Assembly: GCA_947476645.1 (NCBI GenBank)
Contig: CANJRM010000013.1
Coordinates: 1-50,816 of the forward strand
Direction: 5' to 3'
Length of the DNA: 50,816 bases
Source of the DNA: Bacteroidota bacterium
GTDB taxonomy: Bacteria > Bacteroidota > Bacteroidia > Chitinophagales > LD1
The position numbers were made by a program, and so were the translations under genes. Under the pieces are notes generated by a model that saw only the letters and a list, made by a program, of their open reading frames with translations, was not told where the DNA came from and searched no databases. Below, piece by piece: positions 33,386 through 50,816 of this stretch (its first letter is position 1; every line of letters starts with the position of its first letter).

Positions 33386-34055
33386 GTTTTCTTGTGAAGA
33401 TTAACTGGTAGATAAAATTCTTCTCAAAACAAATTACTTTTTCACGAACCAATGAAAAAGCAATATTCCGTTGAGCGCCTATGTTTGCTATCTCGTTCCA
33501 GGTAACATCTTCGCTAACCACCATAAGCACAGTCGAATTTTCATGAGTGTGTTCTTCAATTTGCAAAAAAAGTTTCTGAAAATATTCGAGATTCTCTCCG
33601 GCATACCAAGCCGCGCCTGAGTGATCAACAGGATTCTTTTTATAGTAAGGCGGGTTAATAGCTATCAAATCAAATTGCCGCTTGGTCAGGTTTGAAAACA
33701 AATCACTTTGCAATACCTCAACATCAACTCTATTGCTTTTTGAATTTGCCTTCGTTATTCTTACTGCTTCATCGTTTACATCAATGGCTGTAGCAATAGC
33801 CCCATTTTTTGATGCTACAATGGATATCAATCCACTGCCACACCCTAACTCTAAGAACGATTTACCCTTTAATGGATTGCGTTCTAATTCCTCTATTAAA
33901 AAGGTGGTACTAAAAAATAAACCGGGGTGGAAGACACCCTTTGGTACTTTTACAGTGGTATGCTTATAGTTATAAATAGACTCTTTGGAAATAACGCTTA
34001 GCGTGTAAATCCTGTAAAAAAACAAAAAGCATTTCCGTAATACTTTCCGTATCAA
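33378..34055 (-). CDS. SAM-dependent methyltransferase (HemK/PrmC-like fold)
   Basis: A 225-residue class I methyltransferase with motif I SFLELGCGSGLISIVASK, motif II AIDVNDEA, and motif IV INPPYY, the N-methyltransferase signature. The N-terminal 40 residues are hydrophobic and basic. The TTG start overlaps the stop of the radical SAM gene, so they are probably translated together. NPPY implies a planar nitrogen substrate (amide or base), but the glycan context makes sugar amine methylation an alternative. Confidence 0.8.
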   Translation of the reverse strand: MIRKVLRKCFLFFYRIYTLSVISKESIYNYKHTTVKVPKGVFHPGLFFSTTFLIEELERNPLKGKSFLELGCGSGLISIVASKNGAIATAIDVNDEAVRITKANSKSNRVDVEVLQSDLFSNLTKRQFDLIAINPPYYKKNPVDHSGAAWYAGENLEYFQKLFLQIEEHTHENSTVLMVVSEDVTWNEIANIGAQRNIAFSLVREKVICFEKNFIYQLIFTRKLR

Positions 34056-35551
34056 AATCCTTCTGTTTCAGGTTGACGATACTTGAAAACTTTTTGCAGG
34101 GCTTTTATTTCATAAGGATATTTGTGGTAGCCAGTTTTAAACCGCAAAGATGAAATGGTGCGCAATAATTTCCTGCGTGAAGAATTTAGTTTGATGTCGG
34201 TTATAGTTGGGTAATAACCATTCAACACGGTTTCAAAGTTTTGGATTTTGTCCACCATTTCCACAGTGAGCCAAAGCGTGAGTGGATTTTTGCGCAAATC
34301 AAATTTTTCCCAAGCGGGCGCCAACCAGTCTTCTAACTTTTCAGGAAAACGAAAACCGCTCGCCAGAACTTGTTTGTACATGTCGCTTCCTTCAGTAGGC
34401 ACAGGGCTATACACGTAAATAATTATTTCGGTGGCAGGATTTGCTTCTTTCACTTTGGTAATGAATGCAATGTCGCCATCAATTTGCTGCATCACTTTTT
34501 CAGGTGTGTCAGCTGGTGTGCCAAGCACAAAAGAATATTCAGGAATGATGTTGAATTTTTTCATGCGCGCGGCAAACGATAAAATTTGTGCGCCAGATTG
34601 CTTGCCTCCTTTATCCATTTTTTTCAGCACTTCATCATTACCTGTCTCTGCACCAAAAAAAATCATACGGCAACCGGCATCTCGCATTAAGGCTAACGAT
34701 TCATCGCTGTATTTATCTAGTGTATCAATCCGCGCTTCGCCCCACCAAATCATGTTTTCGTTTTTAATGAGCCGCGCAAATTCAACCGTGCGTTTTTCGC
34801 TCACAAAAAAATTATTGTCATGAAACTCAATGGCATTGCCGCCAAATTTTTCCTTGAGCAATTTGATGTTGCGATAAATTTTTTCGGCACTTTGTCCTTT
34901 CCACTTCGCTTCATAAATGGGAACCACCGCACAAAACGAACAGGTAAACGGACAACCAAAACTGCTGTGGTATGCAATAGTTTTAGTACCTAAATAGCTT
35001 TTCCCTAAATATTTTTGTAGCGGATAAAAAGAGTTCAATTTTTCATACGGTAAATCGGGCAAGGTGTCTTGCTCGTGTAGCGCATCCTTTTTTGTAGTAA
35101 CAATTTCGTTTCCCTTTTTAAAAATGAGATTTGAAATGTTTTCTAAAGGCAAATTATTTTCAAAAGCGTCCAATAATTTTGGAAAAGCAAAATCTCCTGG
35201 GCCATTAACAATAGCATCTACAAAGCCCGATAGCATCACACTCTTGTTTTGGTTTGACGCAAAATAGCCACCCCAAATAATTTTGACAGCGGGAAATTTT
35301 TCGCGCACCAACTTAGTAATAGGAATAGCCTGACGCAATTGCGGCCCCGGCATAACGGTACAACCAAAAAATTTAAAATCATCAGCCTTTAAGTAGTCCA
35401 GAATTTTTTGGTGAGGGGCGTCTTCTAAATTTCCATCTACAATAACCCAGTCATACTTTCCCTGTATGCTTGCTGCTACCTGCAACACACTATTCGGTAT
35501 GCGCGCTAGGTGATTGTTGCTACGAGGGTTGAAGAGGAGAACTTTTTGCAC
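34052..35551 (-). CDS. B12-binding domain radical SAM protein
   Basis: A 499-residue enzyme. The first 140 residues form a cobalamin-binding-like Rossmann domain (VLLFNPRSNNHLARIPNSVL, IIWGGYFASNQ). The radical SAM core follows, with the 4Fe-4S ligands in CPFTCSFCAVV (Cys-x3-Cys-x2-Cys), and a GAETGNDEVLKKMDKGG pattern typical of B12-radical SAM methylases. GTG start. No SPASM domain. Such enzymes methylate or rearrange unreactive carbon centres, including in glycan and hopanoid biosynthesis. Coupled to the downstream methyltransferase by overlap. Confidence 0.88.
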   Translation of the reverse strand: MQKVLLFNPRSNNHLARIPNSVLQVAASIQGKYDWVIVDGNLEDAPHQKILDYLKADDFKFFGCTVMPGPQLRQAIPITKLVREKFPAVKIIWGGYFASNQNKSVMLSGFVDAIVNGPGDFAFPKLLDAFENNLPLENISNLIFKKGNEIVTTKKDALHEQDTLPDLPYEKLNSFYPLQKYLGKSYLGTKTIAYHSSFGCPFTCSFCAVVPIYEAKWKGQSAEKIYRNIKLLKEKFGGNAIEFHDNNFFVSEKRTVEFARLIKNENMIWWGEARIDTLDKYSDESLALMRDAGCRMIFFGAETGNDEVLKKMDKGGKQSGAQILSFAARMKKFNIIPEYSFVLGTPADTPEKVMQQIDGDIAFITKVKEANPATEIIIYVYSPVPTEGSDMYKQVLASGFRFPEKLEDWLAPAWEKFDLRKNPLTLWLTVEMVDKIQNFETVLNGYYPTITDIKLNSSRRKLLRTISSLRFKTGYHKYPYEIKALQKVFKYRQPETEGF

Positions 35552-35762: not shown

Positions 35763-37442
35763 ATGATACAAAAACTTAAAAAAGCATTGGCCTATAAGTT
35801 AATTATATGTGCAGCTATAAACTGTATTGGACAATCGAACAGAACGGTTGGGTTACTTGCCTACGACAAAAAATATTCTTATGAAGGATTGAATCTTTTT
35901 TTTCCGCGTGGTGCAGCTAATGTTTACCTAATCAATAATTGCGGACAGATAGTACATACATGGCTTGATAGTTCCAAAACAGGACCTAATCAATCTGCTT
36001 ATTTACAAAACGATGGAAGTATTTTTATGGCAAAAGATAGTGAGCCTGATACTGTACTTCAATTTACAACCGGGAACGAAAAAATTGAACACCGTGATTG
36101 GGATAACAATTTATTGTGGAGTTTTATTTACAGTGCTTCACCGGCAAAGCCTCATCATGATTTTAAAGTTTTGCCTAATGGAAATATTCTATTGATTGCT
36201 TGGGAGGTTAAAACAGAACAGGATGCCCTTTCTTCAGGAAGAAAACAATCTCTCCTCCCAAGGAACAGAATAATTTCGGAGCAGATTGTTGAGATAGAAC
36301 CCACTGGAAAGTATTCAGGTGAAATAGTTTGGGAGTGGCACGCATGGAATCATTTAATTCAGAATAACGATTCTTCTAAAAAGAATTATGGGGAAGTAAA
36401 ATCACATCCCGAGCTCATTGATTTTAACTACAAAACATACAGCACCAAAGATGATTGGCTACACATAAACTCCATAGATTATGATAAGCAGAGAGATTTG
36501 ATTTTACTTTCTATTTCAGCCTTCAACGAAATTTGGATAATTGATCACAGCACAAATTCTGTAGAAGCCACAAGCCATAGAGGGGGAAACTTTAAGAAAG
36601 GAGGAGATTTAATTTGGCGTTGGGGAAACCCCGAAGCTTACGGAATGGGGGACAGCACTCTGAAGAAACTATACTTTCAGCATAATGCACACTGGGTAAA
36701 AAATGAAGTTGGCAGTAAAACCGAAAACAATGAATCAATCATCCTATTCAATAATTTCTATCCAGATTCTGCATCAGCGGTTTGTGTAGTTACCCCCATA
36801 TTCAATACCACTTCAAGTTTATTCGAAAAACGAAAGGACATTTTTTTGCCCGAAACCTACGACTGGACATATACTACCGAACAGCGCAGTAAAATGTTTT
36901 CACCTATAGGAAGCAGTGTTCAGCTTTTGCCAAACGGGAACTTACTTATATGCGTGGGTAAAAAGGGATATGCATTTGAAGTGGCCGAACGGAAAAATAT
37001 AGTTTGGGAATATGTAGTTCCCACAAAAATGGGTATCCCTGTTAAACAAGGAACCTCCATCACACCGAGCGACAACCGCACTTTTCGTATGGAGCGCTAT
37101 CCGACAAGTTGGTTAAGGGTTAGCGAAAAATTATTCAAACCACAATTTCCACTCGAAACTTTTACCGACACTGCATTTTGCAATTCGCTTCATTATATTG
37201 ATTGCCTTGGAAAAAGAATAGGGCTATATGTCTACTGGAATCAAACCGCAAAACAAATTTCCATTGCTCTTTTAATGCCCCTAGAAGTACCAATAAAACT
37301 GCTAATTAAGGACAGTCAGGAAAAAAGTGTTACAGATATTTTGCTTAACAAACCGATAAAAGTAAAAGTTGACAATTGGAAGAAAGGTAAATACGCAATA
37401 TATGTTGAAGAAAATTTTGTGTCTTCATTTACTTATAATTAA
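35763..37442 (+). CDS. Arylsulfotransferase (ASST)-like protein
   Basis: A 559-residue exported protein (N-terminal signal-like helix to about residue 22). It has the six-blade propeller-type signature of the ASST/Kelch-like family: TVGLLAYD, YLINNCGQIVHTWL, HHDFKVLPNGNILLIAWE, WLHINSIDYD, FSPIGSSVQLLPNGNLLICVGKKG and a His in HNAHWV. True ASST transfers sulfate between phenols; family members occur in glycan loci without sulfotransferase proof. It starts the operon with SGNH, deacetylase and GNAT genes. A C-terminal beta module may follow the propeller. Confidence 0.8.
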   Translation: MIQKLKKALAYKLIICAAINCIGQSNRTVGLLAYDKKYSYEGLNLFFPRGAANVYLINNCGQIVHTWLDSSKTGPNQSAYLQNDGSIFMAKDSEPDTVLQFTTGNEKIEHRDWDNNLLWSFIYSASPAKPHHDFKVLPNGNILLIAWEVKTEQDALSSGRKQSLLPRNRIISEQIVEIEPTGKYSGEIVWEWHAWNHLIQNNDSSKKNYGEVKSHPELIDFNYKTYSTKDDWLHINSIDYDKQRDLILLSISAFNEIWIIDHSTNSVEATSHRGGNFKKGGDLIWRWGNPEAYGMGDSTLKKLYFQHNAHWVKNEVGSKTENNESIILFNNFYPDSASAVCVVTPIFNTTSSLFEKRKDIFLPETYDWTYTTEQRSKMFSPIGSSVQLLPNGNLLICVGKKGYAFEVAERKNIVWEYVVPTKMGIPVKQGTSITPSDNRTFRMERYPTSWLRVSEKLFKPQFPLETFTDTAFCNSLHYIDCLGKRIGLYVYWNQTAKQISIALLMPLEVPIKLLIKDSQEKSVTDILLNKPIKVKVDNWKKGKYAIYVEENFVSSFTYN

Positions 37443-37445
37443 GAA

Positions 37446-38444
37446 ATGAAAAACAAGTTTATAACTATCATTTCAGCAATAACTTATTGCATTACAATAT
37501 TGATAGTCACTCTTTCTGTTTTAGAAGTTGTTTATCACAATCAGCTGTTTGATTTTTATTGCGTAGAACTTAATACCTTAAACTCACAGCAAGAGTTACA
37601 TAGCAACAAAAAGAAAATTCTGATTCTCGGAGACTCTTTCGGTGCACAACAGAAAAGCTATGTGCAGCTCTTAAAAGATTCTCTTCACAATTTTTCGGTT
37701 ATAAACTCTTCAGTTCCAGGAACAAGCGCGAGAGAAATGAGTTATTTATCTCAACGGAGAATTGACCAATTTAATCCTGACAAAATTATTATTCAGATGT
37801 ATGTGGGCAATGATTTGATTGACATTAAACACGCATACAACTTTCATACAATTTCTTGGGTTCGAAATTTCTATTGGTTCATGGCAGATAATTTCAGTTC
37901 GCTTGCCTGGATTAATTACAAACTGGGAGCCTTGCGTACAAATTTAGATTATGAACAAAATTTTGTGGTGCCAAGCAACACAGATTCTTTTTCGGTAGCC
38001 AATTATAATGGGCGAGTAAAACTCTTGATTCGTGCTAATGCAAGATTTATCGCACAAAGCATTTTGTTGGAAGACGAAAAGTATCAATGCGCGTTTAGGG
38101 AGCTGACTAATTACATTTCAGCCATTGAGAAACGTTTTCACCAAACACACCCCAATGGTGAAATTGTTCTGGTATGCATCCCGCATTGTTCCGAAGTGAA
38201 CCAGCATTACAAAATCAACTATGAAAAATTAGGTGCGCTGTTCAACAGAAGTGAGTACAAAAGTGAAGTGAATTTCAATTCCAAATTGAAATTGCAATTT
38301 GAGGAACTCACTTTTGTCAATATTATGGATTCGTTATCACAAGCAGAAATAAACGGCACGGCAGTCTATTTCCAAAACGATGAACACCTCAACAAGAAGG
38401 GGCAACAAATAGTGGGACAACAAATTCTTCATCAATTGCAATGA
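37446..38444 (+). CDS. SGNH/GDSL-type hydrolase or O-acetylation factor
   Basis: A 332-residue exported or membrane-anchored SGNH protein. Membrane helix 5-30. Block I is ILILGDSFG (Ser64 nucleophile), block II has the Gly in SSVPGTSAREM, block III MYVGNDLID (Asn), and the Asp-x-x-His pair occurs near residues 312-314 in NDEHLNKKGQQ. Relatives in glycan loci are esterases or acetyltransferases. All catalytic blocks seem intact, so enzymatic activity is likely. It follows the sulfotransferase-like gene by 3 bases and overlaps the deacetylase start. Confidence 0.85.
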   Translation: MKNKFITIISAITYCITILIVTLSVLEVVYHNQLFDFYCVELNTLNSQQELHSNKKKILILGDSFGAQQKSYVQLLKDSLHNFSVINSSVPGTSAREMSYLSQRRIDQFNPDKIIIQMYVGNDLIDIKHAYNFHTISWVRNFYWFMADNFSSLAWINYKLGALRTNLDYEQNFVVPSNTDSFSVANYNGRVKLLIRANARFIAQSILLEDEKYQCAFRELTNYISAIEKRFHQTHPNGEIVLVCIPHCSEVNQHYKINYEKLGALFNRSEYKSEVNFNSKLKLQFEELTFVNIMDSLSQAEINGTAVYFQNDEHLNKKGQQIVGQQILHQLQ

Positions 38445-39430
38445 ACATTCCTATCCATTATTTACGAACCGCTAAATGGATTTTGCAAGGCAAATGGAAA
38501 GCTGCGCAACTATCGCCAGAAGTATTGCAAAACGCTAGAGGCAAAATAGTTTTAGCATATCATGGCATAGATATGGTCAACGGCACCAGTGTGAATACAA
38601 AATTCAGAGGTGTAAAGAAATTTGAAGAAGAAATTCGGTTACTAAAGAAACACACCAATGTAATTTCATTGAAAGATTATGTAGATGACAAATTGAATCC
38701 AGAAAAGCTAAATGTGGCTATCACCTTTGACGATGGATTTCAAAACAATTTCTTTTTGGCGAAACCGATTTTAGAGAAACATAACTTGCCTGGCACTTTT
38801 TTTATTACGCCCATTTGGGAACAAGAAAAAAATATTCTCTGGGCAGATTTGGTAGATCAGGTTACCTCGTTTGCACCACACACAATAAGTATAGCAGGCG
38901 AGGCATACACCAAAAATATTTTCGGAAAATATTTTCACACTTCAGGCTTATCAATTCATCAGCATGTTATTACACAGAATGGAAGTTTTATTGAAGAGCT
39001 ATATACAGAGTTTATGCCGTTCGCAAAATTTATGCAGAATGATTCAGTCGATATTTATTGGAAGGTGATGACACCGCGAATGGTGAAAGAGTTGAGCGAC
39101 TGTGACTTGTTTACAATAGGCTCGCATGGGTTTACTCATACCAACCTTTGTTTTCTTTCAAATGAAGAAACAATAGATGAGTTGAAAATCTCAAAAATCA
39201 TTTTGGAAAAGCTTATACAGCAACCCGTAGATTTTTTTGCCGCTCCATTTGGCGCTCATGACGAGCGAACAATTTCGCTAACCCGACAAGCAGGTTATAC
39301 GCATCAGGTTTTTGCAACACTCTTTATCAAAAAATTGGAAACCGAAAAAGATATTGTTCCGCGTTTTGGCATCAATCCCTATCTTTCACCTAAGCATCAA
39401 CTATTGTTCATCGCAAATAAAAAATTTTGA
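38441..39430 (+). CDS. Polysaccharide deacetylase family protein (NodB-type)
   Basis: A 329-residue CE4 enzyme. Motif 1 is VAITFDDGFQNN (catalytic Asp pair), motif 2 lies in IGSHGFTHTNLCFLS (SHGxTH metal ligands), and motif 3 corresponds to FAAPFGAHD. It removes N-acetyl groups from a polymer. Signal peptide is not obvious, so it may act on lipid-linked or cytoplasmic-side intermediates. It overlaps the SGNH gene by 4 bases and the GNAT gene by 4. Confidence 0.9.
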   Translation: MNIPIHYLRTAKWILQGKWKAAQLSPEVLQNARGKIVLAYHGIDMVNGTSVNTKFRGVKKFEEEIRLLKKHTNVISLKDYVDDKLNPEKLNVAITFDDGFQNNFFLAKPILEKHNLPGTFFITPIWEQEKNILWADLVDQVTSFAPHTISIAGEAYTKNIFGKYFHTSGLSIHQHVITQNGSFIEELYTEFMPFAKFMQNDSVDIYWKVMTPRMVKELSDCDLFTIGSHGFTHTNLCFLSNEETIDELKISKIILEKLIQQPVDFFAAPFGAHDERTISLTRQAGYTHQVFATLFIKKLETEKDIVPRFGINPYLSPKHQLLFIANKKF

Positions 39431-40350
39431 GCTTCACATTTGAGCGGCTTTCCAAAGCTAATATTCATTGTCTCGTTCCCTTGTATTTTGCCTTGTATAA
39501 AAAGCAACTTCCAGTTACTTATTTTGAAAAAAAATACGACACAAATTATTTAACCGAAAGCTTATTCGGATACTTTGCCTTTTATAACGGTACTCCTGCT
39601 GGCTTTACCGGGATGATACCTTACGAATTACAGTATAAAGGGAAAACAGAATTAGCTGTGCAATCGCTTGACAGCATGACTCACCCGCAATACATGAAAC
39701 GCGGTTTGTTTAAAACACTCATGGAAAAAGTGTATGAAGATTTGAATGCTGAAAACATTTCGTTCATCTGGGGTTTTCCCAACGATGGGTCAATAAAAAG
39801 CGCAACTAAAAAATTGAACTGGCAACCTACTGTGCCAATGAACGGCTATTGTATTCCAGTGCTGAATCGTTACGTATCATTTACCAAACGGAAGATGAAT
39901 AATTTGTATTATGGTAAAGATGCGCTGTCTAAAATTTTCGAAAATGAATTGACCAACGAATTTCCTAACCATTCGTTAATGGGTTGTGATTATGTAACCA
40001 CAGTACGCAACAAAAATTATTTCGACTACAAAAAATTTGGCGGAAGTATTTTGATAAACATGAAAGGAGTAAAAATTTGGCTAAAGCTTAATGGCTCTAT
40101 CTTCATTGGAGATATGGATAATATTTCTGCCGCAGAATTGAAACAGTTAATGCCTTTGTTAACAACCAAAGCAATGCAATGCGGAGCAACCAATATTTAT
40201 TTTCAAACGCATTCGGATTCTGAAATTGATAAATCTTTTGCCGTCCTTTATCCCAATTTTAGTTCTTGGAAAATTCTCTATCACGATTTGGGTTCCACCT
40301 TTCCACTTGAAAAAATTGGCGTAACTTTTGGCGATTTAGATTCCTTCTAA
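39427..40350 (+). CDS. GNAT-family acyltransferase
   Basis: A 307-residue protein with a GNAT-type N-terminal half: FAFYNGTPAGFTGMIPYEL and the acetyl-CoA loop MTHPQYMKRGLFKTLMEKVYEDL, followed by FIWGFPNDGSIKSATKK and a C-terminal domain of about 120 residues. In glycan loci such proteins N-acylate amino sugars left by a deacetylase. Start is a TTG overlapping the deacetylase stop. Its stop overlaps the stop of the convergent O-antigen ligase-like gene. Confidence 0.8.
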   Translation: MSFTFERLSKANIHCLVPLYFALYKKQLPVTYFEKKYDTNYLTESLFGYFAFYNGTPAGFTGMIPYELQYKGKTELAVQSLDSMTHPQYMKRGLFKTLMEKVYEDLNAENISFIWGFPNDGSIKSATKKLNWQPTVPMNGYCIPVLNRYVSFTKRKMNNLYYGKDALSKIFENELTNEFPNHSLMGCDYVTTVRNKNYFDYKKFGGSILINMKGVKIWLKLNGSIFIGDMDNISAAELKQLMPLLTTKAMQCGATNIYFQTHSDSEIDKSFAVLYPNFSSWKILYHDLGSTFPLEKIGVTFGDLDSF

Positions 40351-41654
40351 TTCGATTTTTTAAGGGTCCAGATTTGTTGATCACTTAAGATTACCGCGCA
40401 ACAAGACCACATTATACCAGCAAGTTTGTCTTCATGAATGAAATTATTGACCAAAACATGCATGAAGAAAGTAGTTAACGCAAAGAAGATGAACAGAAAA
40501 AGTATCTCCTCCTTTTGAAAAAATAGTTTGGCCGCAAATAAAAGAGAGAAAAAAACAATACCACACCAGAATAGAAAACCGGGCAATCCCAATTCTGTCA
40601 AAGCCGCTAAATAATCAGAATGAGAATTTCCTCCGGTACCCAAGCGAGCTAAAGGCAATGCCTCGACTAAACTAATACGGGTCATTTCCTCTTTTTTTTG
40701 GTATGCCAGATACCTGAATTTATAAAGGTTATTTCCGAATCCGGTTAAAGGTCTTTCCTGAAACATTCGCCACGCACATTTATAACGATTCAGTCTTTCT
40801 AAGTTAGCAACATCATAAGTCCAGTTAAACGCAGAAAGCAGTTGATGATAAACAGTTGTGCTTTTTACGTACTCTTTTTTTTGCGTAACCCCCGTGATTA
40901 ATAAACCAACAACAGCGAGCATTATCACCAAAGAAGAAAAAGCGATAACAAGATGTTTTGTCTGACTTCTGAAACAATAAACTAAAAGCGCACCAATACC
41001 TCCAATTATTATCGTTAACCACGCAGCACGGGAAAACGATAGAAACAAACCAGTTAGTAGCAAGAACAAAATACCTGCGATAAGTTTTTTATCCCGGAAA
41101 AACCTTGGAAGTGCTTCTGGTCTTTGAAAAAAATAAACCCAAAACGGAATTAGAAAAGCGAGCACTGCGCCATAAAATGGATGGTCATGGTAAAAAGGAC
41201 GCATGGAAGCTGCTGAAAAATCAATCACAAAATTATACTGCGCATGCAAATACAAGCCCCGTAATAAAATAAGACCAAAGGAAAGCGTGTAAGCAAAAAT
41301 GCAGAGTAAAAAAAAACGAAAATCTTTCTTTTGAACAAAAATATAGCCAGCTACAAAAACTATCAAATGAAGAGTTTCGATAACGGTGTATTTAATTGAA
41401 ACCTTAGGCATATCGGAATAAATGCAACTAACCCATGACCAAAGAATATAACCGGTAATAGAAAGAAAAAGCGGATTTGTATAGACTTGCTTAACCGCCT
41501 CATACAATTGTTTCCAATAAAACAAAAGAGTAAAAGCAATTACAATTTCAATTGGCTCACTAGGTATGTTTATTCCAAAACCTAAGCTTAAGTTTTCTAC
41601 CGAAACAGGCAAAGTGAAAAACAAAGCGATGTATAAGAACCGAAGGATTAGCAT
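40347..41654 (-). CDS. O-antigen ligase family membrane protein (Wzy/WaaL-like)
   Basis: A 435-residue polytopic protein with about ten to twelve membrane segments and a large periplasmic loop (about 255-325). The key loop residue pattern appears in GTGGNSHSDYLAALTELGLPG (about 340-360), matching the HN/HS-x-x-L-x-x-x-x-E-x-G-x-x-G signature of O-antigen ligases and Wzy-type polymerases. It likely joins or polymerises lipid-linked oligosaccharide. Convergent with the GNAT gene; upstream it faces the DprE1-like gene divergently. Confidence 0.88.
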   Translation of the reverse strand: MLILRFLYIALFFTLPVSVENLSLGFGINIPSEPIEIVIAFTLLFYWKQLYEAVKQVYTNPLFLSITGYILWSWVSCIYSDMPKVSIKYTVIETLHLIVFVAGYIFVQKKDFRFFLLCIFAYTLSFGLILLRGLYLHAQYNFVIDFSAASMRPFYHDHPFYGAVLAFLIPFWVYFFQRPEALPRFFRDKKLIAGILFLLLTGLFLSFSRAAWLTIIIGGIGALLVYCFRSQTKHLVIAFSSLVIMLAVVGLLITGVTQKKEYVKSTTVYHQLLSAFNWTYDVANLERLNRYKCAWRMFQERPLTGFGNNLYKFRYLAYQKKEEMTRISLVEALPLARLGTGGNSHSDYLAALTELGLPGFLFWCGIVFFSLLFAAKLFFQKEEILFLFIFFALTTFFMHVLVNNFIHEDKLAGIMWSCCAVILSDQQIWTLKKSN

Positions 41655-41756: not shown

Positions 41757-43100
41757 ATGAATACCGAAAGAAATAAAATTGCAGGATGGGGAAACTATCC
41801 GGTGATACACAGCAATATATTTAACCCTGAGAACGAAACTGAGGTTACTGAACTTGTTGCTAAAACAAACGATATCATAGCTAGAGGTAACGGCAGAAGT
41901 TATGGGGATTCAGCGTTGGGAACTCAAGTTGTTTCTTCGCTGCTCTGCAATAAAATTATCGCATTTGATAAAGCAGAAGGCATCCTTACTTGCGAAAGCG
42001 GAGTATTGCTTTCAGAAGTTTTAACCACAACTATTCCATGTGGATTTTTCTTACCCGTAATGCCCGGCACAAAATATATTACGGTAGGCGGTGCGGTTGC
42101 GACTGACGTGCACGGGAAAAATCATTTTCACAAGCAAAGTTTTTCTGCGCATGTTTTGGAAATAAAATTGCTGCTTTCCAATGGCGATACTATTATTTGT
42201 TCCAAACAAAACAACCGCGAATTGTTTTGGGCTACATGCGGTGGCATGGGTTTGACGGGATTTATCTTAGAAACGAAAATTCAATTATCAAAGATCGAAA
42301 CCGCTTATATTAAACAGCAAAATTTTTGTTGTGAAAATCTTTCCGAATTATTTTCTGCTTTTAAAAAGCATAATCAATTCGACTATAAAGTTGGATGGCT
42401 CGATTGTTTTGCAACAGAAGATAATTTAGGTAAAGGCATTTTTACCGTAGCAAGCCATTGTTTAACCAAAGACTTGTCACTACAAAAACAAAACAACGCA
42501 TTAAAGGAAGAGAGGAAAACGCAGTTTACGATTCCTTTTTTCTCGCCTGCATTTTTAATGAGTCGTTGGGCCATACAAGCAATGAATTTTTTACGGTGGC
42601 GAAGAGCTAAGTCCAATAAACAGGTAGAAATTATTCCTTTAGAGCAATTCTTTTTTCCGCTCGATTCTATTTTACAATGGAATAAACTGTATGGTCGAAA
42701 GGGTTTTTTGCAATATCAATATGTGTTGCCTACCAATAATGCCGAGCAAGGGACGAAAGAAATTCTACAACTGATGGCAGTAGCAAATGACAAATGCCTT
42801 TTAGCCGTACTCAAGCAATTTGGCAAGTGTAATGACCGCACGCTTTTAAGTTTTCCGATGGAAGGTTTTACTGTTTCTCTCGACTTCAAATTTAGCCCGA
42901 GCTTGTTTGCGTTATTCGACAGATTTGATGAAGTAGTTTTGAAACACGGAGGCAGAATTTACTTAGCTAAAGATGCCCGCATGAAAACCGAGATGATGCA
43001 AAAAGGATATCCTAAACTCAAAGAGTTTCAGTTCATTGTTAAGCGCGTAAATTCAAACAATAAATTTACATCGGCACAGCGCGAACGAATCAATTATTAA
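41757..43100 (+). CDS. FAD-binding oxidoreductase, DprE1-like
   Basis: A 447-residue PCMH-type FAD oxidase. The FAD segment is IARGNGRSYGDSALG (41-55) with MPGTKYITVGGAVATDVHGKNHF (about 110-132), and the C-terminus ends with a DprE1-type substrate domain. In mycobacteria DprE1 oxidises C2 of decaprenylphosphoryl-ribose. The next gene (3 bases on) is a short-chain dehydrogenase like DprE2, and the pair occurs with UbiA nearby. The cysteine and Lys/Tyr details of the DprE1 active site cannot be confirmed by eye, so the reaction is inferred from context. Confidence 0.85.
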   Translation: MNTERNKIAGWGNYPVIHSNIFNPENETEVTELVAKTNDIIARGNGRSYGDSALGTQVVSSLLCNKIIAFDKAEGILTCESGVLLSEVLTTTIPCGFFLPVMPGTKYITVGGAVATDVHGKNHFHKQSFSAHVLEIKLLLSNGDTIICSKQNNRELFWATCGGMGLTGFILETKIQLSKIETAYIKQQNFCCENLSELFSAFKKHNQFDYKVGWLDCFATEDNLGKGIFTVASHCLTKDLSLQKQNNALKEERKTQFTIPFFSPAFLMSRWAIQAMNFLRWRRAKSNKQVEIIPLEQFFFPLDSILQWNKLYGRKGFLQYQYVLPTNNAEQGTKEILQLMAVANDKCLLAVLKQFGKCNDRTLLSFPMEGFTVSLDFKFSPSLFALFDRFDEVVLKHGGRIYLAKDARMKTEMMQKGYPKLKEFQFIVKRVNSNNKFTSAQRERINY

Positions 43101-43102
43101 AA

Positions 43103-43834
43103 ATGAAGACAGCCTTAATACTCGGTGCCAAGTCTGATATTGCCAAAGCCATTGCAACTGAATTATCTAAACAGAAAGTGAATCTTCTTTTGGCTGCGCG
43201 TAATGCAAATGAGTTGGCGAACTTTAAAATTGATTTACAAAACAAATATGGCAACACCATTTCGATAATAGAATTTGATGCGCTTGCTTACGCTACGCAC
43301 GAAAATTTTGGAGAGCAACTACCTACAAATTTAGATGTCGCGTTTTGTGTGTTTGGTTTTTTAGGAGAACAAAAAAATGCAGAAACGAACCGAGCAGAAA
43401 TGTTTCGCATTGTAGAAACAAATTACACTGGTGCTATTTCAATTTTAGAAATTATTGCCAGGCAGTTTGAGAAAAAAAAACAGGGATTGATTGTTGGTAT
43501 TTCTTCAGTGGCCGGGGAGCGTGGCAGACAGTCCAACTATTTTTATGGAAGTAGTAAAGCCGGTTTTACCGCCTACTTAAGTGGCTTGCGAAATCGTTTG
43601 CACAAAAGTAATGTACATGTGCTCACGGTAAAACCTGGTTACGTGAAAACAGCCATGACAGCACATTTGCAAATGCCGCCTGTCATTTCTACATCGCCTG
43701 ATGTAGTGGCTAAAAAGATTCTTAATGCTATAGATGCCGGCAGAAATGAAATTTACGTTCCTGCCATTTGGCGAGTAATTATGCGTGTAATAAAAGACAT
43801 GCCCGAATTTATTTTTAAGCGACTGAAACTTTAG
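43103..43834 (+). CDS. Short-chain dehydrogenase, DprE2-like
   Basis: A 243-residue SDR. Cofactor motif is LILGAKSDIAKAIATEL. Catalytic Ser and Tyr-x3-Lys appear in ISSVAGERGRQSNYFYGSSKAG (Y-G-S-S-K). In the mycobacterial pathway DprE2 reduces the 2-keto intermediate to decaprenylphosphoryl-arabinose, acting with DprE1. Here it follows the DprE1-like gene by 3 bases, which supports the pairing. Other SDR roles remain possible. Confidence 0.88.
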   Translation: MKTALILGAKSDIAKAIATELSKQKVNLLLAARNANELANFKIDLQNKYGNTISIIEFDALAYATHENFGEQLPTNLDVAFCVFGFLGEQKNAETNRAEMFRIVETNYTGAISILEIIARQFEKKKQGLIVGISSVAGERGRQSNYFYGSSKAGFTAYLSGLRNRLHKSNVHVLTVKPGYVKTAMTAHLQMPPVISTSPDVVAKKILNAIDAGRNEIYVPAIWRVIMRVIKDMPEFIFKRLKL

Positions 43835-43837
43835 GGT

Positions 43838-45298
43838 TCAATGGTTTAGCTTAAAAACGCGCAACGAACCTTGTTTAGCAATTTCTTTTCCGAAATAATT
43901 TGAAAGTAAAGGTCGGTGTAAATACGAAGTATCGGTAAGCACTGCGTAATCGCAAATTTTTAATGCTTCAAAAGTGTAAGACTCGCGTACATCGCCCATA
44001 CCATTCCAGCCTTGTTGATTCATTAAATAGAGCGAAATATTGTAGCTCTTATCATTTGCCGAAAAAACTTTGTCGCTATTTTTTATTCCCGCTTTTCGCA
44101 GAGTGGGTTCCACCGTATTCCAGTCTGTATTTACCAAATCGTAGTGGGAATAAATTTTTTGAAGCGTATTTCCATACAAGGCAAAGGATATAAAGAAGAA
44201 GAATGCAATCCCTGCTTTTCTATAAGGGGTAACACTCCATTCTTGTTCTTCAGCAATTTTGAAGGCAGAAGCAAAAAGTGTAAAAACCGTAAATTGAAAC
44301 GGCACATGATAGTAGCCATGGAATGAAGCATTACGCATCATAAGACAATAGAACAACAACCAAAAAGCAAAACCTGAAGCGGTAAACACATGTAGACAAT
44401 TTCGCGGATTGAAATTTTTGAACAACAGCAGTAACGAAAGCAAAATCAAAATCAAAATTGGTAGTGGATATATCTTTGGAAGATTTACAGCCATTTTAAA
44501 ACTGTATTGCATTACATCGTTTAATGTTTTGGGCGACATAAAACCAAGTTTAAAAACATTGGAATGATACAGAATTTGCAACTGCTTTGCATACGTTAAC
44601 CACGCCACACAAATTATCACAGGAATTGAGAGCAATAGAATTTTGACAGAAATACTTTTATGAGCTTTATTTTTATCGCCACTAAAAAGCAAGGCAACAA
44701 AAGTTGCAGCCACTAAAAACAAAACCGAAGACTTAAGTAAAACTGCAACAGAAGAAAAGACAGCAAAAAGCAAAATGCTTCTTACGCTTTTAAAATTCCC
44801 TTTGACTAAAAAGTAGAACCCGAGTATAAAAAAAGTGAGTGCCACAGTATCGGGGAGAAAACCAGTTGAGTAATAAATAAGATTGGGTGATACCAACCAA
44901 AGCGTGGCGGCAAGCAGTTGAAACAGAACAGTCTTCAAAAAATCTTTCGAAATAAGGAAGGCAATAACAAAGCCGAAGAGAGAAAACCCGAGTATAAAAA
45001 AGCGATATAGAAACTCATGAAAACCAAAACAGCGATACAGTTTCGAAACCAGAAAAGGAATTAGAGGAAACTCGCCAACAGCAATACCCGATGAATTATA
45101 AACGAGATTATGTGTATGTGGTATAAGAAGTTTCTGATCAAACTGAAAATAATTTAACGCAATAGATGCTCTGTCACATTGAGCCCACGCATGGTCACCA
45201 TGAGGACGGGAGAAAAAATACGTTACAGGATTTAGCACAGAGTATAAAATAGCAACCATTGTAATGAAACACAAAACCTGTTTAAAAAAACTATTCAT
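43838..45298 (-). CDS. Polytopic GT-C-like glycosyltransferase (GT39/ArnT type)
   Basis: A 486-residue membrane protein with about ten membrane helices. Near the start the periplasmic loop PHGDHAWAQCDRASIALNYFQ carries an acidic residue that fits the GT-C Asp-containing first loop. GT-C enzymes use polyprenyl-phosphate sugars as donors, so a DPA-like product is a plausible donor. The start overlaps the HAD gene by 8 bases. Sugar and acceptor unknown. Confidence 0.75.
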   Translation of the reverse strand: MNSFFKQVLCFITMVAILYSVLNPVTYFFSRPHGDHAWAQCDRASIALNYFQFDQKLLIPHTHNLVYNSSGIAVGEFPLIPFLVSKLYRCFGFHEFLYRFFILGFSLFGFVIAFLISKDFLKTVLFQLLAATLWLVSPNLIYYSTGFLPDTVALTFFILGFYFLVKGNFKSVRSILLFAVFSSVAVLLKSSVLFLVAATFVALLFSGDKNKAHKSISVKILLLSIPVIICVAWLTYAKQLQILYHSNVFKLGFMSPKTLNDVMQYSFKMAVNLPKIYPLPILILILLSLLLLFKNFNPRNCLHVFTASGFAFWLLFYCLMMRNASFHGYYHVPFQFTVFTLFASAFKIAEEQEWSVTPYRKAGIAFFFFISFALYGNTLQKIYSHYDLVNTDWNTVEPTLRKAGIKNSDKVFSANDKSYNISLYLMNQQGWNGMGDVRESYTFEALKICDYAVLTDTSYLHRPLLSNYFGKEIAKQGSLRVFKLNH

Positions 45299-45914
45299 AA
45301 GGCAGTACTTTTTTCCCTTTTACCAAAAATGCTTTGTCGGCCAATTTCATGTAATACAAATCAGAGCGGTGATTCCCGTAAGCATAAATCTCCCTTATCT
45401 TTTTCAAATCGTAAGCCTCATTCAGCCTTTCAACTTTCGCTTTTCCATAACAATTTCTGCCCAGTAGATTTCCCGTGTAAAAACCATCCACTTCCTCCAT
45501 TTCAGAGCATAGTAGGTCGATACTTTCTTTTCTACACCAATAATTTAACCACACCCTACACGAAGCAGAAAGCAACAAAATTTCAAAACCATCTTCTCTA
45601 AGTCTTTTCACTTCAGCGTAAACTATTGAATGAAGGATTAGAGGGATTTCATTTGTTCCAAATTCATCGCCACGCAATTTTACAGCAGCTACAGCATGTC
45701 CTCCAAATATGTTCCGGAACAATTTTTCTTTAACAGCTTGCATATTTAGATAGCCAAATTTAGCCAAGACTAACTGAGGAATAATGGATACAAGAGCAGT
45801 TATCGCTTTCATTTTGCCGGCATAGAAAAAAATAAACCTAAAGGTTGTATCGCGCGTGGTTAGGGTACCGTCAAAATCAAAAATGGCAAGTTTGGTGGGT
45901 ATTCTTTTTTGCAT
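45291..45914 (-). CDS. HAD-IB family phosphatase
   Basis: A 207-residue HAD phosphatase. Motif I is FDFDGTLTTRDT (Asp13, Asp15), motif II the LLSASCRVW Ser region, and motif III the acidic C-terminal YAYGNHRSDLYYM. It belongs to the phosphoserine-phosphatase-like group. Its place between a UbiA-type transferase and a GT-C suits a phosphatase removing the 5-phosphate of polyprenyl-phosphoribose (the Rv3807c-type step, though that enzyme is a PAP2 type). Overlaps the GT-C gene; starts 2 bases after UbiA. Confidence 0.85.
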   Translation of the reverse strand: MQKRIPTKLAIFDFDGTLTTRDTTFRFIFFYAGKMKAITALVSIIPQLVLAKFGYLNMQAVKEKLFRNIFGGHAVAAVKLRGDEFGTNEIPLILHSIVYAEVKRLREDGFEILLLSASCRVWLNYWCRKESIDLLCSEMEEVDGFYTGNLLGRNCYGKAKVERLNEAYDLKKIREIYAYGNHRSDLYYMKLADKAFLVKGKKVLPYE

Positions 45915-45915
45915 T

Positions 45916-46818
45916 TTATCTTCGGTAAATAAAATATACCATCATTAAAAGCCAACAAAGCAAAGCTAATTGAACAGGTAAATTTTCACGCAAAACGACT
46001 TGTGGTGCTATGGATTCATTTCCTCGTTTTACCAAAACGATGTAGTGATACACTCCAAATGAAACAGGCAAACAGGTAATGAAAACGTAGGAGGAATGTA
46101 AACGTGAAATAGTTTCAGCACTAAATACATACAAGACATAACAGACGAAGGCAATTGAAATAATAGCAACAATCCCATTCCTTAAAAATTCTGCTGAATA
46201 AAATTTTAAGGAAGGACGAACAGATGAAAACTCAATTTTATATCCTGAAAGCAAGTGAATTTCTTCCAATCGTTTGGCAAAGCCAAAACTTATGGCGAAG
46301 AGAAATATCATGACGTAAAGCCAACTGGAAATTTCAGTTGCGCTTACCATTCCTCCTAATTGAATACGAAGCAGAAATCCAAAAGCAATTAACAGTAAAT
46401 CAAAAGGGGCAAAGTGTTTAATGTAAGTTGAATAAAGCAAGTTAGTGACGAAGTAAATTGCAAATAACACAGGCAATTCAGAAGAAATAAAAAAAGATGA
46501 GCCAATAGCTACCAGTAATAAGAAGGAACCTACTATTGCAGCTGCGGGCTTTGAAATTGCACCTTCCGTTATAGGTCTTTCTCTTTTTGTTGGATGTTTT
46601 AAATCCAAATTAAAATCAACCAAATCGTTGATGATGTAAACTGCACTGGCGAGTAAAGAGAAAAGAAAAAATGTAGCCGTAAGTAAAACCAGATTATTGC
46701 CCACAAAAATTCTTCCGCCAAAGAAGGCGGGGAAAAAAATCAAACCATTTTTTATGTAGTCGTTTATCCGTAAAAGGCGAAACCAGTTCAGCATTTGAAA
46801 ATATTTTGAAACGTTCAC
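45916..46818 (-). CDS. UbiA-family prenyltransferase, DPPR synthase-like
   Basis: A 300-residue polytopic enzyme with about eight helices. The metal-binding motif is NDLVDFNLD (Asn64, Asp65, Asp68, Asp72) followed by HPTKRERPI. This spacing and the start are those of decaprenyl-phosphate 5-phosphoribosyltransferase (UbiA, Rv3806c) more than of quinone UbiA enzymes. It would transfer phosphoribose from PRPP to a polyprenyl phosphate. GTG start. It heads a minus unit UbiA-HAD-GT-C. Confidence 0.85.
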   Translation of the reverse strand: MNVSKYFQMLNWFRLLRINDYIKNGLIFFPAFFGGRIFVGNNLVLLTATFFLFSLLASAVYIINDLVDFNLDLKHPTKRERPITEGAISKPAAAIVGSFLLLVAIGSSFFISSELPVLFAIYFVTNLLYSTYIKHFAPFDLLLIAFGFLLRIQLGGMVSATEISSWLYVMIFLFAISFGFAKRLEEIHLLSGYKIEFSSVRPSLKFYSAEFLRNGIVAIISIAFVCYVLYVFSAETISRLHSSYVFITCLPVSFGVYHYIVLVKRGNESIAPQVVLRENLPVQLALLCWLLMMVYFIYRR

Positions 46819-46878
46819 GATAATAGCACAGTTTCATTTATGCTTTGAGTCAGCAAATATTTGTGTTTATTTATTTCA

Positions 46879-48285
46879 GTGAAAAACACCAAAGCCTTTT
46901 TTGCCCTGTCTGTATACTTTATTGCTTGTTTATTTTTTACGCAATGGAGAAACTTCAATGGTTTGTGCGGACAAGACGCACATGAATACTTCCGTTACAG
47001 CAAAGCCTTGTTGAATTATTTTAAAACAACACAACATGCGGGAGATTATTTTTGGCCGGTATGGTATCCGTTATCCGCTGCATGCTTGTCTCTTTTAACC
47101 AGAATCCCAGTTATATTTTCGTTGCAATTAGTATGCCTTCTTAGTGTAACACTTATAGTAGCGGTAGTTCTATTTTGGCAGGGAGAAAACAAGAACAAGT
47201 CACCAAAAATTATTTACGCACTGTTGGCGGTTGGGTTTTCTCCATTTTTATGGCGAAGCGGATTATCCTGCATGGCAGATGCTATGAGTGTAGCGCTTTT
47301 AATGATGGCACTTTTTGCATTCAGTAAATTCATTAATCGCGAAAGCAACAAATGGATTTATGCTTTTGTCTTTTGTGCAGCACTTGCTACCATGACACGC
47401 TATGCTTCTGCTGTTGTTTTGTTGGCACCATCTATTTTGTTGTTACTGAAAATGCTTTCAAATAAAAACTGGAAGTCACTTTTGTTATGCGGAATGATTG
47501 TTTTGCTCGTTTGTGTTCCTCATTTACTTATTCGCCATAATACCCCTTTGGCCTTTGTGCATCATGAGTGGATTAACTCTTGGTCTTTGTTTAATTTTTT
47601 CAAAGCAGATTTTGTTACGCGCGATGGAATACAGCACTACAAGGTTTTCAATTTAGCTTTCATGGTTTTGGCATTTGTTCATATTGGTTTTGGTGTTTTA
47701 GTCTTGCCCCTTTTGTTTTTCGCTAGACCGAAAGATTTTTCAAGCACGCTGAACAAAACACTTTTATTCAGCGTTGTTTTTTACTCGCTTTTTTTATCGG
47801 GCATACCTTTTCAGAACAAACGCTTTTTGTTAGCTACTTTTCCAATTATTATGCTGTTACTTGAACCCGCATTTGAACGCATGCTCCACTTTGTAAAATG
47901 GAAAGGGCTAGTGCTTTTGATTGTAGCGGCAGTACAGTTGTTTCTTTGCCACAAATTTTTCGAAGAATATGCACAACGCAGTTTGCTAGAACAAAAACTA
48001 GCATCATTTGTTCGGCAGCACAATGAAAAAATCCTTTACACTTTTAATGTAGATATGGCGTTAGCCAGTTATGATACAAGTAAAGTCATGCGAAATCTTT
48101 GGAAAGAGAAATACGATTCATTCGAAATAAAATCGTTAGTGCTTTTTAATGAGACGGAATTTGCGCAACAATGGAAAGGAAAAAATCCGATGTTGAACTG
48201 GGAGAATTTGAAAAAATATTATCTCCTCGAAAGAATTTCCAATGAGGGCACTTGGGTTTTATACCGTATTGAAAGCAGAAAATGA
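46879..48285 (+). CDS. Polytopic GT-C-like glycosyltransferase (second copy type)
   Basis: A 468-residue membrane protein with about ten helices. The first periplasmic loop has CGQDAHEYFRYSKALLNYFK with an Asp-Ala-x-Glu pattern, the GT-C catalytic-type loop. A soluble C-terminal part of about 80 residues follows. I start at GTG 46879 (KNTKAFFAL), since the in-frame TTG at 46861 gives an unlikely N-terminus. Divergent from UbiA. It precedes a methyltransferase and a glycosyltransferase, with 4-base overlap to the former. Possible acceptor of the polyprenyl-phosphate pentose donor. Confidence 0.75.
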   Translation: MKNTKAFFALSVYFIACLFFTQWRNFNGLCGQDAHEYFRYSKALLNYFKTTQHAGDYFWPVWYPLSAACLSLLTRIPVIFSLQLVCLLSVTLIVAVVLFWQGENKNKSPKIIYALLAVGFSPFLWRSGLSCMADAMSVALLMMALFAFSKFINRESNKWIYAFVFCAALATMTRYASAVVLLAPSILLLLKMLSNKNWKSLLLCGMIVLLVCVPHLLIRHNTPLAFVHHEWINSWSLFNFFKADFVTRDGIQHYKVFNLAFMVLAFVHIGFGVLVLPLLFFARPKDFSSTLNKTLLFSVVFYSLFLSGIPFQNKRFLLATFPIIMLLLEPAFERMLHFVKWKGLVLLIVAAVQLFLCHKFFEEYAQRSLLEQKLASFVRQHNEKILYTFNVDMALASYDTSKVMRNLWKEKYDSFEIKSLVLFNETEFAQQWKGKNPMLNWENLKKYYLLERISNEGTWVLYRIESRK

Positions 48286-49073: not shown

Positions 49074-50134
49074 TGCACATCGTATTTATTACACCCGGCT
49101 TCGCGAAGAATGAAAATGACACGACCACCATTCCTACACTATTAGCACTTGCTAACTATTTAACCGGAAAAGGAAATCGTATTTCTGTAATTGCGTTGGA
49201 TTATCCATTTGAACAAACGAATTACCAATGGAAAAACGTAAAAGTGTATTCCTGCGGTGGAGGCAACCGGAAATTTCCAATGAAATTTTTCACCTTGTTA
49301 AAAGCTTATTCTCTCTTCAAAAAAATCCAAGCTGAAAACGCGGTGAATATTCTCCATAGTTTTTGGTGGCAGGATACTGTTGCAGTGGGAAATTTTCTTT
49401 CAAAAAAATTTTCGATTCCGCACCTCACAACTTTAATGGGGCAAGATGCTTTGCCCTCGAACAACTATTCTAAATGGCTTTCTGCAAAAGGGAAAAACAT
49501 TGTTGCTCTTTCTGAATCTCATGCTAAATATTTCGAGAAAACTTTTGGCAGAAAGCCTAATCAAATTATTCCCTGGGGAATTGATAAAAACGATTTTTTA
49601 GCTCTTGAAAATACAGACCGCACAATTGATATAATAGGCGTGGGCTGGCTGAACGAAATAAAAAATTATTCTGCTTTTATTGATGTCATCTATTTAGTTA
49701 GAGAAAATATTCCGCAAGTAAAGAGTGTAATTGTTGGCGATGGCGAACAAAGGAAAATGTTAGAAACAAAAATCCATGCTCTTCAATTGCAAAACAATAT
49801 CAGCATTGTTGGTTTGCAATCGCGAAACGAAACATTGCGACTAATGATGCACAGTAAAGTGCTCTTGCATACTTCGGCTTTTGAATCTTTCGGCTATGTT
49901 TTTGCTGAAGCCATATATGCAGGTGCAACAATCGTTTCAAGTGAAGTAGGTATGGCAAATTCAACCAATGCTTTGATTGGAAATTCAATTGAGGAATTGG
50001 CAGAAAAAGTTTGTGTGGCGTTAACGCAGAAACAAAATGTGGATACTAAATCAGTTTTTACTATTGGGCAAACAGCAAAGGCATATCTTGAATTGTATAG
50101 CAGCCTTCAATCTGCACAACCCACTAAGAATTAA
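49073..50134 (+). CDS. Glycosyltransferase family 4 (GT-B)
   Basis: A 353-residue GT4 enzyme. The start IVFITPGFAKNENDTTTIPTLLALANYL is the acceptor loop, with VVGDGEQRKMLE and SFGYVFAEAIYAGA (E-x7-E nucleotide site) at the C-terminal domain. I use the ATG at 49073 that overlaps the stop of the methyltransferase gene; the longer frame lies inside that gene. It closes the plus-strand unit and converges on the radical SAM gene. Confidence 0.88.
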   Translation: MHIVFITPGFAKNENDTTTIPTLLALANYLTGKGNRISVIALDYPFEQTNYQWKNVKVYSCGGGNRKFPMKFFTLLKAYSLFKKIQAENAVNILHSFWWQDTVAVGNFLSKKFSIPHLTTLMGQDALPSNNYSKWLSAKGKNIVALSESHAKYFEKTFGRKPNQIIPWGIDKNDFLALENTDRTIDIIGVGWLNEIKNYSAFIDVIYLVRENIPQVKSVIVGDGEQRKMLETKIHALQLQNNISIVGLQSRNETLRLMMHSKVLLHTSAFESFGYVFAEAIYAGATIVSSEVGMANSTNALIGNSIEELAEKVCVALTQKQNVDTKSVFTIGQTAKAYLELYSSLQSAQPTKN

Positions 50135-50816
50135 AACGCACTGCAACATCTAGTGCAAGCGGGAAACAATCCGTTGGCTTTCATCAAATCTTTTCTGAAC
50201 GCAGACAGTTTTTGTGAGTTCCAGATTTCCTTCAATGACTGTTGATACACGTTTCCAAGGGTTATGTTATAACAACGTCCGTGTGCCGGAATTACAGAGC
50301 CGTCACTTTTAATCATGATGTTAGTGAAAGCATCGTTGCAAATTTTTCCGATTCGCTTTTCAGGCTCGTTGTAAAAAACTTCCAAATGTTCTGCATAGCG
50401 CAAATCGGGAGAGAATGAAACTTTAAAGGGAAATTTCTCTCTACACAGTAGTTGTATCTGTTCCAACAAAATCTTCACATCAATTTTGTTGGTGTCGCTT
50501 TGCTCAACGTTAGAATGTGAAGCAGAATATAAATCTCCCCAAAGTGCATTATGCGCGGCTGCTATTTCGTTTGTGGTAAAATTGGAATGCATAAAACCCA
50601 ATTGAACAATCGGATATTTGAGGAAGTAGTCGGTGAATAATTTTAGCTCTGAAAAATTCCATTGGGTGATTGTGCAGAAAATAGAAATGCGTGGAGCGTC
50701 TTTTCGTATCACTAATTTTTCTATGCCTTCTATGGCTCGTTGAAAAGAAAGTTTGTGACCGCGAATTTCGTTGTGCGTTTCTTCTGTTCCATCTAACGAA
50801 ATGTAAATTTCTTTCA
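50131..50816 (-). CDS. Radical SAM/SPASM protein (partial, runs off right end)
   Basis: The frame stays open to the right edge, so the N-terminus, including the core CxxxCxxC, is outside the window. The visible 228 residues have the radical SAM body (EIYISLDGTEETHNEIRGHK) and a C-terminal SPASM domain with Cys ligands in CNDAFTNIMIKSDGSV, AHGRCYNITLGN and PACTRCC. A GTG at 50712 is not the true start. SPASM proteins use extra iron-sulfur clusters. Other members modify peptides or sugars; here it may act on the glycan locus. Stop overlaps the convergent glycosyltransferase. Confidence 0.85.
   Translation of the reverse strand, partial: KEIYISLDGTEETHNEIRGHKLSFQRAIEGIEKLVIRKDAPRISIFCTITQWNFSELKLFTDYFLKYPIVQLGFMHSNFTTNEIAAAHNALWGDLYSASHSNVEQSDTNKIDVKILLEQIQLLCREKFPFKVSFSPDLRYAEHLEVFYNEPEKRIGKICNDAFTNIMIKSDGSVIPAHGRCYNITLGNVYQQSLKEIWNSQKLSAFRKDLMKANGLFPACTRCCSAF

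Follow-up and report, generated by a model that had tools for sequence, protein, structure and literature searches.

Does a member of the Bacteroidota make a polyprenyl-phosphate-linked pentose with relatives of the enzymes of the mycobacterial decaprenylphosphoryl-arabinose (DPA) pathway? The question is raised by six neighbouring genes on contig CANJRM010000013.1 (assembly GCA_947476645.1), which encode a DprE1-like FAD oxidase, a DprE2-like short-chain dehydrogenase/reductase (SDR), a UbiA-type polyprenyl-phosphate phosphoribosyltransferase, a HAD-IB phosphatase, and two GT-C-like membrane proteins (GTC1 and GTC2). The window analysed is the whole contig (50,816 bases) from a genome of 3.56 Mb in 201 contigs that is ~90% complete, and all six genes of a preliminary description of this DNA were recovered as reading frames, at the same positions and on the same strands. 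We consider it probable that the cell makes polyprenyl-phosphate-D-arabinofuranose by means of the UbiA, HAD, and DprE1/DprE2 proteins, with a flippase and the UbiA-linked GT-C acting thereafter. The four putative enzyme assignments are supported by profiles, best matches among solved structures, active-site residues, and a gene order kept elsewhere; gene identity, key residues, order, and tree placement are observed, and from them we infer the reactions, the sugar, the flip, the GT-C donor, and the acceptor. Briefly, the UbiA protein would convert phosphoribosyl pyrophosphate (PRPP) to polyprenyl-phosphate-ribose-5-phosphate, the HAD protein would strip the 5'-phosphate, the DprE1-like oxidase would oxidise C2' of the resulting polyprenyl-phosphate-ribose, and the DprE2-like SDR would reduce it with inversion to polyprenyl-phosphate-arabinofuranose; this chain from PRPP follows published work on these families (PMC11127046 and PMC10994848). 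Once a flippase had turned the lipid over, the GT-C of the UbiA-HAD unit would move the pentose, outside the cytoplasm, onto a surface glycan or glycoprotein.

The UbiA protein, with the motifs NDLVDFNLD (residues 64-72) and HPTKRERPI (residues 75-83), carries Pfam PF01040 at 6.2e-21. Decaprenyl-phosphate phosphoribosyltransferase models lead its curated families, at 181 and 162 bits, followed by PRK08238 (151 bits), a model that spans the full length of a HAD-UbiA fusion at locus L083 (644 bits). The generic prenyltransferase and EboC models gave 47 bits, the 4-hydroxybenzoate and heme O models at most 33 bits, and no model for menaquinone enzymes was among the 15 curated families matched. 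The only solved structures matched were those of Rv3806c (entries 8j8j and 8j8k), and 10 of the 13 residues of the Rv3806c substrate site for PRPP and Mg2+ (roles from PMC10994848) are identical, namely R22, K28, Y70, N73, D77, K87, R90, Y138, K143, and K191. A tree of 38 rows separates 33 of phosphoribosyltransferase type, among them Rv3806c and a Rhodococcus protein, from five heme O rows with a support of 100/100. This tree omits eight of 46 rows, comprising the long-branch paralogues C55, C82, C7, C21, and L018 (from the window genome or its relatives), L017, L098, and the wrong-frame 24-aa L132; in the 46-row tree, with the long-branch paralogues kept, the same split is supported at 68/68 only. 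Grouping with menaquinone or heme O synthases, which the preliminary description had named as evidence against its reading, was thus not observed, the separation from heme O enzymes being given by the tree and that from menaquinone enzymes by the profiles, as the trees hold no row so labelled. The heme O synthase of the window genome is a separate gene that scores above its model cut-off. A menaquinone or heme O enzyme was rejected as an identity for the UbiA protein on the basis of the profiles, the Rv3806c-only structure matches, and the tree. The UbiA proteins of two sister genomes (L068:9499-10371 and L069:9525-10397) have HPQKKHKLL in place of HPTKRERPI, with K87 kept and R90 replaced by K.

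The gene next to UbiA, separated by 1 nt, encodes the HAD protein, which matches PF12710 at 1.7e-28 and TIGR01490 (HAD-IB) at 103.9 bits, above the cut-off of 98.3. The motifs DFDGT, SAS, Lys, and GNHRSD are present, likewise in the free HAD proteins of further cassettes; a search of solved structures with the HAD protein gave no sequence match. A PAP2-type phosphatase beside the synthase, a trait of mycobacterial DPA loci, was not found here; in Rhodococcus, PAP2 adjoins UbiA. The proposal of a HAD enzyme in the role of the PAP2 phosphatase is consistent with these data and has a published precedent, as the PRP domain of Citrobacter ORF15 belongs to the HAD family (PMC11127046). HAD and UbiA domains occur in one long gene at L083, as assigned by Pfam, and the N-termini of all ten long UbiA genes align with a HAD motif. 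Between UbiA and DprE1, a DUF212 divergent-PAP2 gene is found at L081 (10659-11087) and L087 (8667-9071), and a GtrA gene at L083 (8974-9375), a hint of alternative genes for the phosphatase and the flippase. The phylum shows three candidate 5'-phosphatase genes: the free HAD, the UbiA-fused HAD, and the DUF212 divergent-PAP2.

The oxidase contains FAD_binding_4 (7.8e-18) and aligns over its full length to solved DprE1 with 248 bits, the next non-DprE1 solved oxidase giving 38.8. In the oxidase tree, which includes one uninformative 47-aa wrong-frame row (G008_weak), the DprE1 rows separate from an outgroup of two long-branch oxidases of the window genome (89/97, not starred). The grouping with alditol oxidases that had been put forward as a counter-indication is therefore not borne out. 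An alditol or lactone oxidase was rejected as an identity for the FAD protein on the structure score, the profiles, and the tree. In the printed alignment, the window oxidase has Ser where the DprE1 row carries the Cys of WNVCVDF, which we take to be the benzothiazinone target. The SDR, paired with DprE1 by adjacency, contains adh_short (1.2e-32), and among solved structures DprE2 matches it best (126 bits; next, 55). Of the curated families, the unnamed SDR model PRK07102 scores highest (315.8 bits, above the cut-off of 267); the same order, PRK07102 first and DprE2 second, was seen for the DprE2 proteins of all seven other cassettes scanned (six above the PRK07102 cut-off), a pattern read from cassette DprE2 proteins only. 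The gap between the DprE1 and DprE2 genes is 2 nt, which together with the profiles and the best solved-structure matches agrees with the plus-strand unit described earlier.

The association of these genes extends well beyond the window. DprE1-like genes (E <= 1e-60) are present in 81 of 395 genomes sampled evenly across the phylum, the window genome included. Around 34 of these 81 loci, chosen non-randomly to take in the 11 that belong to the order or class together with a scatter of the others, we read 11-20 kb and scored genes by tblastn at 60 bits or more. DprE2 was found at 26 loci, a UbiA relative at 24, and both at 19; a free HAD was present at eight, and a UbiA gene of more than 400 aa at ten. 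UbiA, DprE1, DprE2, and HAD are contiguous at seven loci (L073, L074, L076, L077, L078, L079, and L103), and also in the same-family genomes G018 and G019 (L065 and L066); the cassette of L099 was detected by tblastn although missed in calling open reading frames. As the same genes are grouped in many further genomes, the association exceeds chance. UbiA-DprE1-DprE2 also lie on a Flammeovirgaceae plasmid, where UbiA is already annotated as decaprenyl-phosphate phosphoribosyltransferase, and 88 and 73 plasmid records were matched by the UbiA and DprE1 queries, respectively. A search of phages with DprE1 gave no match, and a contig scan with the single UbiA protein as query gave one weak locus, in a metagenome-assembled genome of Neptuniibacter. 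An unannotated 6.6-kb clone labelled bacteriophage from human feces (L134; MT837543.1) encodes a UbiA relative of 34% identity.

Within the window, the spacing of the genes suggests two short units, DprE1-DprE2 on the plus strand and UbiA-HAD-GTC1 on the minus strand (HAD and GTC1 overlap by 8 nt); the earlier account of a minus-strand unit of GT-C, HAD, and UbiA followed by a plus-strand second GT-C stands by reading frames and Pfam. The window genome has a single strong UbiA-phosphoribosyltransferase match and a single strong DprE1 match, both in this locus.

Table 1. Genes of the window and, in the last row, members of a membrane protein family at other cassette loci
Feature	Position	Strand	Remarks
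DprE1-like FAD oxidase	41757..43100	+	447 aa; proposed 2'-oxidation of polyprenyl-P-ribose
DprE2-like SDR	43103..43834	+	243 aa; proposed reduction to arabino epimer
GTC1, GT-C-like membrane protein	43838..45298	-	486 aa; candidate pentosyltransferase
HAD-IB phosphatase	45291..45914	-	207 aa; proposed 5'-dephosphorylation
UbiA-type polyprenyl-phosphate phosphoribosyltransferase	45916..46818	-	300 aa
GTC2, second GT-C-like membrane protein	46861..48285	+	474 aa; weaker pentosyltransferase candidate
Wzy_C (O-antigen ligase/polymerase-like) protein beside DprE1	40347..41654	-	PF04932 2e-21
Polysaccharide deacetylase and GNAT genes	38441..40350	+	syntenic neighbours of DprE1-DprE2 block
WEGAYR-loop family members	L071:10693-12366, L073:11847-13502, L075:6403-7986, L077:14002-15633, L104:10814-12394

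GTC1 is the likeliest transferase judging from gene linkage, because its gene stays next to those of HAD and UbiA in all three genomes having a close copy; since these three are close kin, the linkage is only moderate evidence. PMT_2 was found in GTC1 of the window and in its two close relatives, and the HGDHAWAQCDRAS loop of GTC1 is conserved save one A/T change; GTC2 contains PMT_2 and Glyco_transf_22 in all three orthologues. There is nevertheless a substantial minority chance that the donor is as proposed and that the pentosyltransferase is GTC2 or an unlinked GT-C: GTC2 is adjacent in the window and has close copies in the same three genomes, and some genomes with no strong match to UbiA or DprE1, G013 and G015 for example, encode weaker GTC1-like proteins of 23-31% identity. 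Against this, GTC2 lies on a contig other than that of UbiA in both sister genomes, G007 and G017. Neither GT-C matched a solved arabinosyltransferase in searches of the PDB, profile searches of the PDB with three-row alignments of GTC1 and GTC2 gave no match and one weak cupin match, and no match to GTC1 or GTC2 was found among plasmids. A multi-span family of 526-557 aa with a conserved WEGAYR loop, a candidate arabinosyltransferase, is encoded at five cassette loci (Table 1), in L071 between UbiA and DprE1; the L075 member has no Pfam family, and those of L071 and L104 no NCBIfam family.

The close relatives bear on whether the two units of the window act together. Among 30 genomes of the family, strong UbiA (>150 bits; next score, 46) is present in six and DprE1 (E < 1e-100) in five, all five within the six, with weak DprE1 matches in two more. 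The hypergeometric figure for UbiA with DprE1 over the 30 genomes is 4e-5, to which a caution about kinship applies: GTC1, GTC2, and Wzy have close copies in exactly the window genome (G000), G007, and G017, and by a control class-III aminotransferase (98-99% identity to the window copy; others, at most 91%) these three are nearest kin, so that the shared copies are not counted as independent evidence of linkage. In each sister, the genes are distributed over three contigs as block A (UbiA-HAD-GTC1), block B (deacetylase, GNAT, Wzy_C, and DprE1-DprE2), and block C (GTC2, methyltransferase, GT4, and SGNH). It is conceivable, but unlikely in our judgement, that the donor of UbiA-HAD-GTC1 is polyprenyl-phosphate-ribose and that DprE1/DprE2 serve another glycan, their nearness being incidental. 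Such a separation would fit the different contigs of blocks A and B in the sisters, the genome G021, in which UbiA and HAD occur without a DprE1 match, and the epimerase-free ribofuranose transfer known for Citrobacter O1 (PMC11127046). It is opposed by the presence of both units in G000, G007, and G017, by the single contiguous set in G018 and G019, and by UbiA near DprE1 at 24 of the 34 loci read; moreover, strong UbiA occurs once in the window genome, so that DprE1/DprE2 would have to draw their substrate from a source that we cannot name. That the genes are instead relatives of quinone or heme O prenyltransferases and of alditol or lactone oxidases with another function is very improbable, for although UbiA, FAD_binding_4, and SDR are large superfamilies and ALO falls narrowly under its cut-off in the oxidase, the 4-hydroxybenzoate and heme O models and the non-DprE1 oxidases score as low as given above.

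Several observations weigh against the arabinofuranose pathway proposed here. All three enzymes with a dedicated model fall below its equivalog cut-off: UbiA with 181 bits against 234 (NF008977), the oxidase with 394.6 against 500 (NF053785, DprE1), and the SDR with 204.8 against 250 (NF053786, DprE2); the DprE1 cut-off was reached by none of the 395 genomes of the phylum and is therefore not discriminating within it. In the UbiA substrate site, Q135 is replaced by N and Y157 by F, and K208 lies opposite P beside a gap; F at the Y157 position occurs in some mycobacteria (PMC10994848). No UbiA match was found nearby at ten of the 34 DprE1 loci, and no DprE2 at eight. G021, a genome only 73% complete, has UbiA and HAD on a 4.5-kb contig that also encodes a weak PMT_2 protein and, as noted, has no DprE1 match. 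The GT-C assignment is based on weak PMT_2 scores (GTC1, 26.6 bits, barely above the gathering threshold of 26.1; GTC2, 33.5 against 26.1), and a single-sequence structure model of GTC1 has a mean pLDDT of 44. Finally, no GtrA protein was found in the window genome and no flippase at the locus, where the genes scanned at 28725-50814 match no MATE or GtrA family, MATE not having been sought genome-wide.

The cassette diverges fast between sister species. UbiA, HAD, GTC1, DprE1, and DprE2 are 53-64% identical between the window and the sisters, against 98-99% for the class-III aminotransferase mentioned above and 86-88% for a TonB receptor. The two sisters compared with each other, G007 and G017, show identities of 71-75% for UbiA, HAD, and GTC1, 67% for DprE1, and 83% for DprE2, and of 85-99% for eight further proteins encoded on the UbiA stretch. 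The four-fold-site distances between these two genomes are 0.82-1.06 for GTC1, HAD, UbiA, DprE1, Wzy, GNAT, GTC2, and GT4, 0.39 for DprE2, 0.45 for the deacetylase, and 0.36-0.70 for six flanking genes. Horizontal import is a possible cause; of the G007 flank, only the TonB gene was found in the stretch read of the window genome, so that no empty site could be shown. The site after DprE2 is possibly one of variable cargo, as it holds GTC1-HAD-UbiA in the window (43834-46861), a subtilase in G007 (L122:6854-8546), and a pair of MBOAT and AlgX-like genes in G017 (L123:5978-8540).

In comparison with described systems, the locus is a further instance of a known pathway, partly scattered and fast-diverging, and not a new kind of system. 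The chemistry of a UbiA-type synthase with a HAD phosphatase was published in 2024 for Citrobacter, with ribose and xylose, and DprE1/DprE2 homologues accompany arabinofuranose-bearing glycans or arabinose strains (PMC11127046). The three-component pentofuranose systems of Citrobacter youngae O1/O2 resemble the window in a PRPP-using UbiA-type synthase, a HAD-family 5'-phosphatase, epimerising enzyme(s), a glycan locus, and, as judged by PMT_2, a candidate GT-C; they differ in that HAD is fused to UbiA there and free in the window, a MATE flippase is encoded in their locus but no flippase was found in the window, and a single SDR epimerase (xylose) or none (ribose) stands in place of DprE1 and DprE2 (PMC11127046). 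The mycobacterial DPA pathway (Rv3806c, Rv3807c, DprE1, DprE2, and Emb/Aft), with which the locus had first been compared, holds as a parallel for the homologues of Rv3806c, DprE1, and DprE2; the HAD in place of a PAP2-type phosphatase, the lack of GtrA, and GT-Cs unmatched by solved arabinosyltransferases set the window apart, and its layout is closer to the Gram-negative systems (PMC11127046). A plasmid cassette of Rhizobium leguminosarum (L131) likewise has UbiA, DprE1, and DprE2 in a row; it differs in that its UbiA has 513 aa and falls on another branch of the UbiA tree than the window protein, and in that UbiA and DprE1 have a GtrA gene between them.

In mycobacteria, the enzymes of the polyprenyl-phosphate-pentose donor pathway are drug targets; with this locus, the pathway would be extended to a lineage of Bacteroidota and, as judged from the frequency of DprE1-like genes, is common in the phylum. 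The candidate GT-C families named here have a directly testable donor, and D-arabinofuranose is predicted in surface glycans. We suggest, tentatively and with more doubt than confidence, that surface glycans or glycoproteins bearing D-arabinofuranose form a widespread class in the Bacteroidota that has so far gone undescribed, and that unclassified cassette-encoded GT-C families (GTC1 and the 526-557-aa family) make them, the genes being partly scattered and diverging quickly between sister species as antigenic loci do. No literature on this cassette in Bacteroidota was found among titles and abstract openings of open-licence papers, one query being swamped by general terms, which is weak evidence of absence; the main text of PMC11127046 has no word starting with 'bacteroid'.

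As for the neighbouring genes, the Wzy_C gene adjoins DprE1-DprE2 in G007 and G017 too, and the deacetylase and GNAT neighbours recur in L122 and L123. An arylsulfotransferase-like (ASST) protein is encoded at 35763-37442, inside the glycan region, at the ends of which lie genes for a B12-binding radical SAM protein (34052-35551) and a SPASM protein (50131-50814), with relatives in block C of G007.

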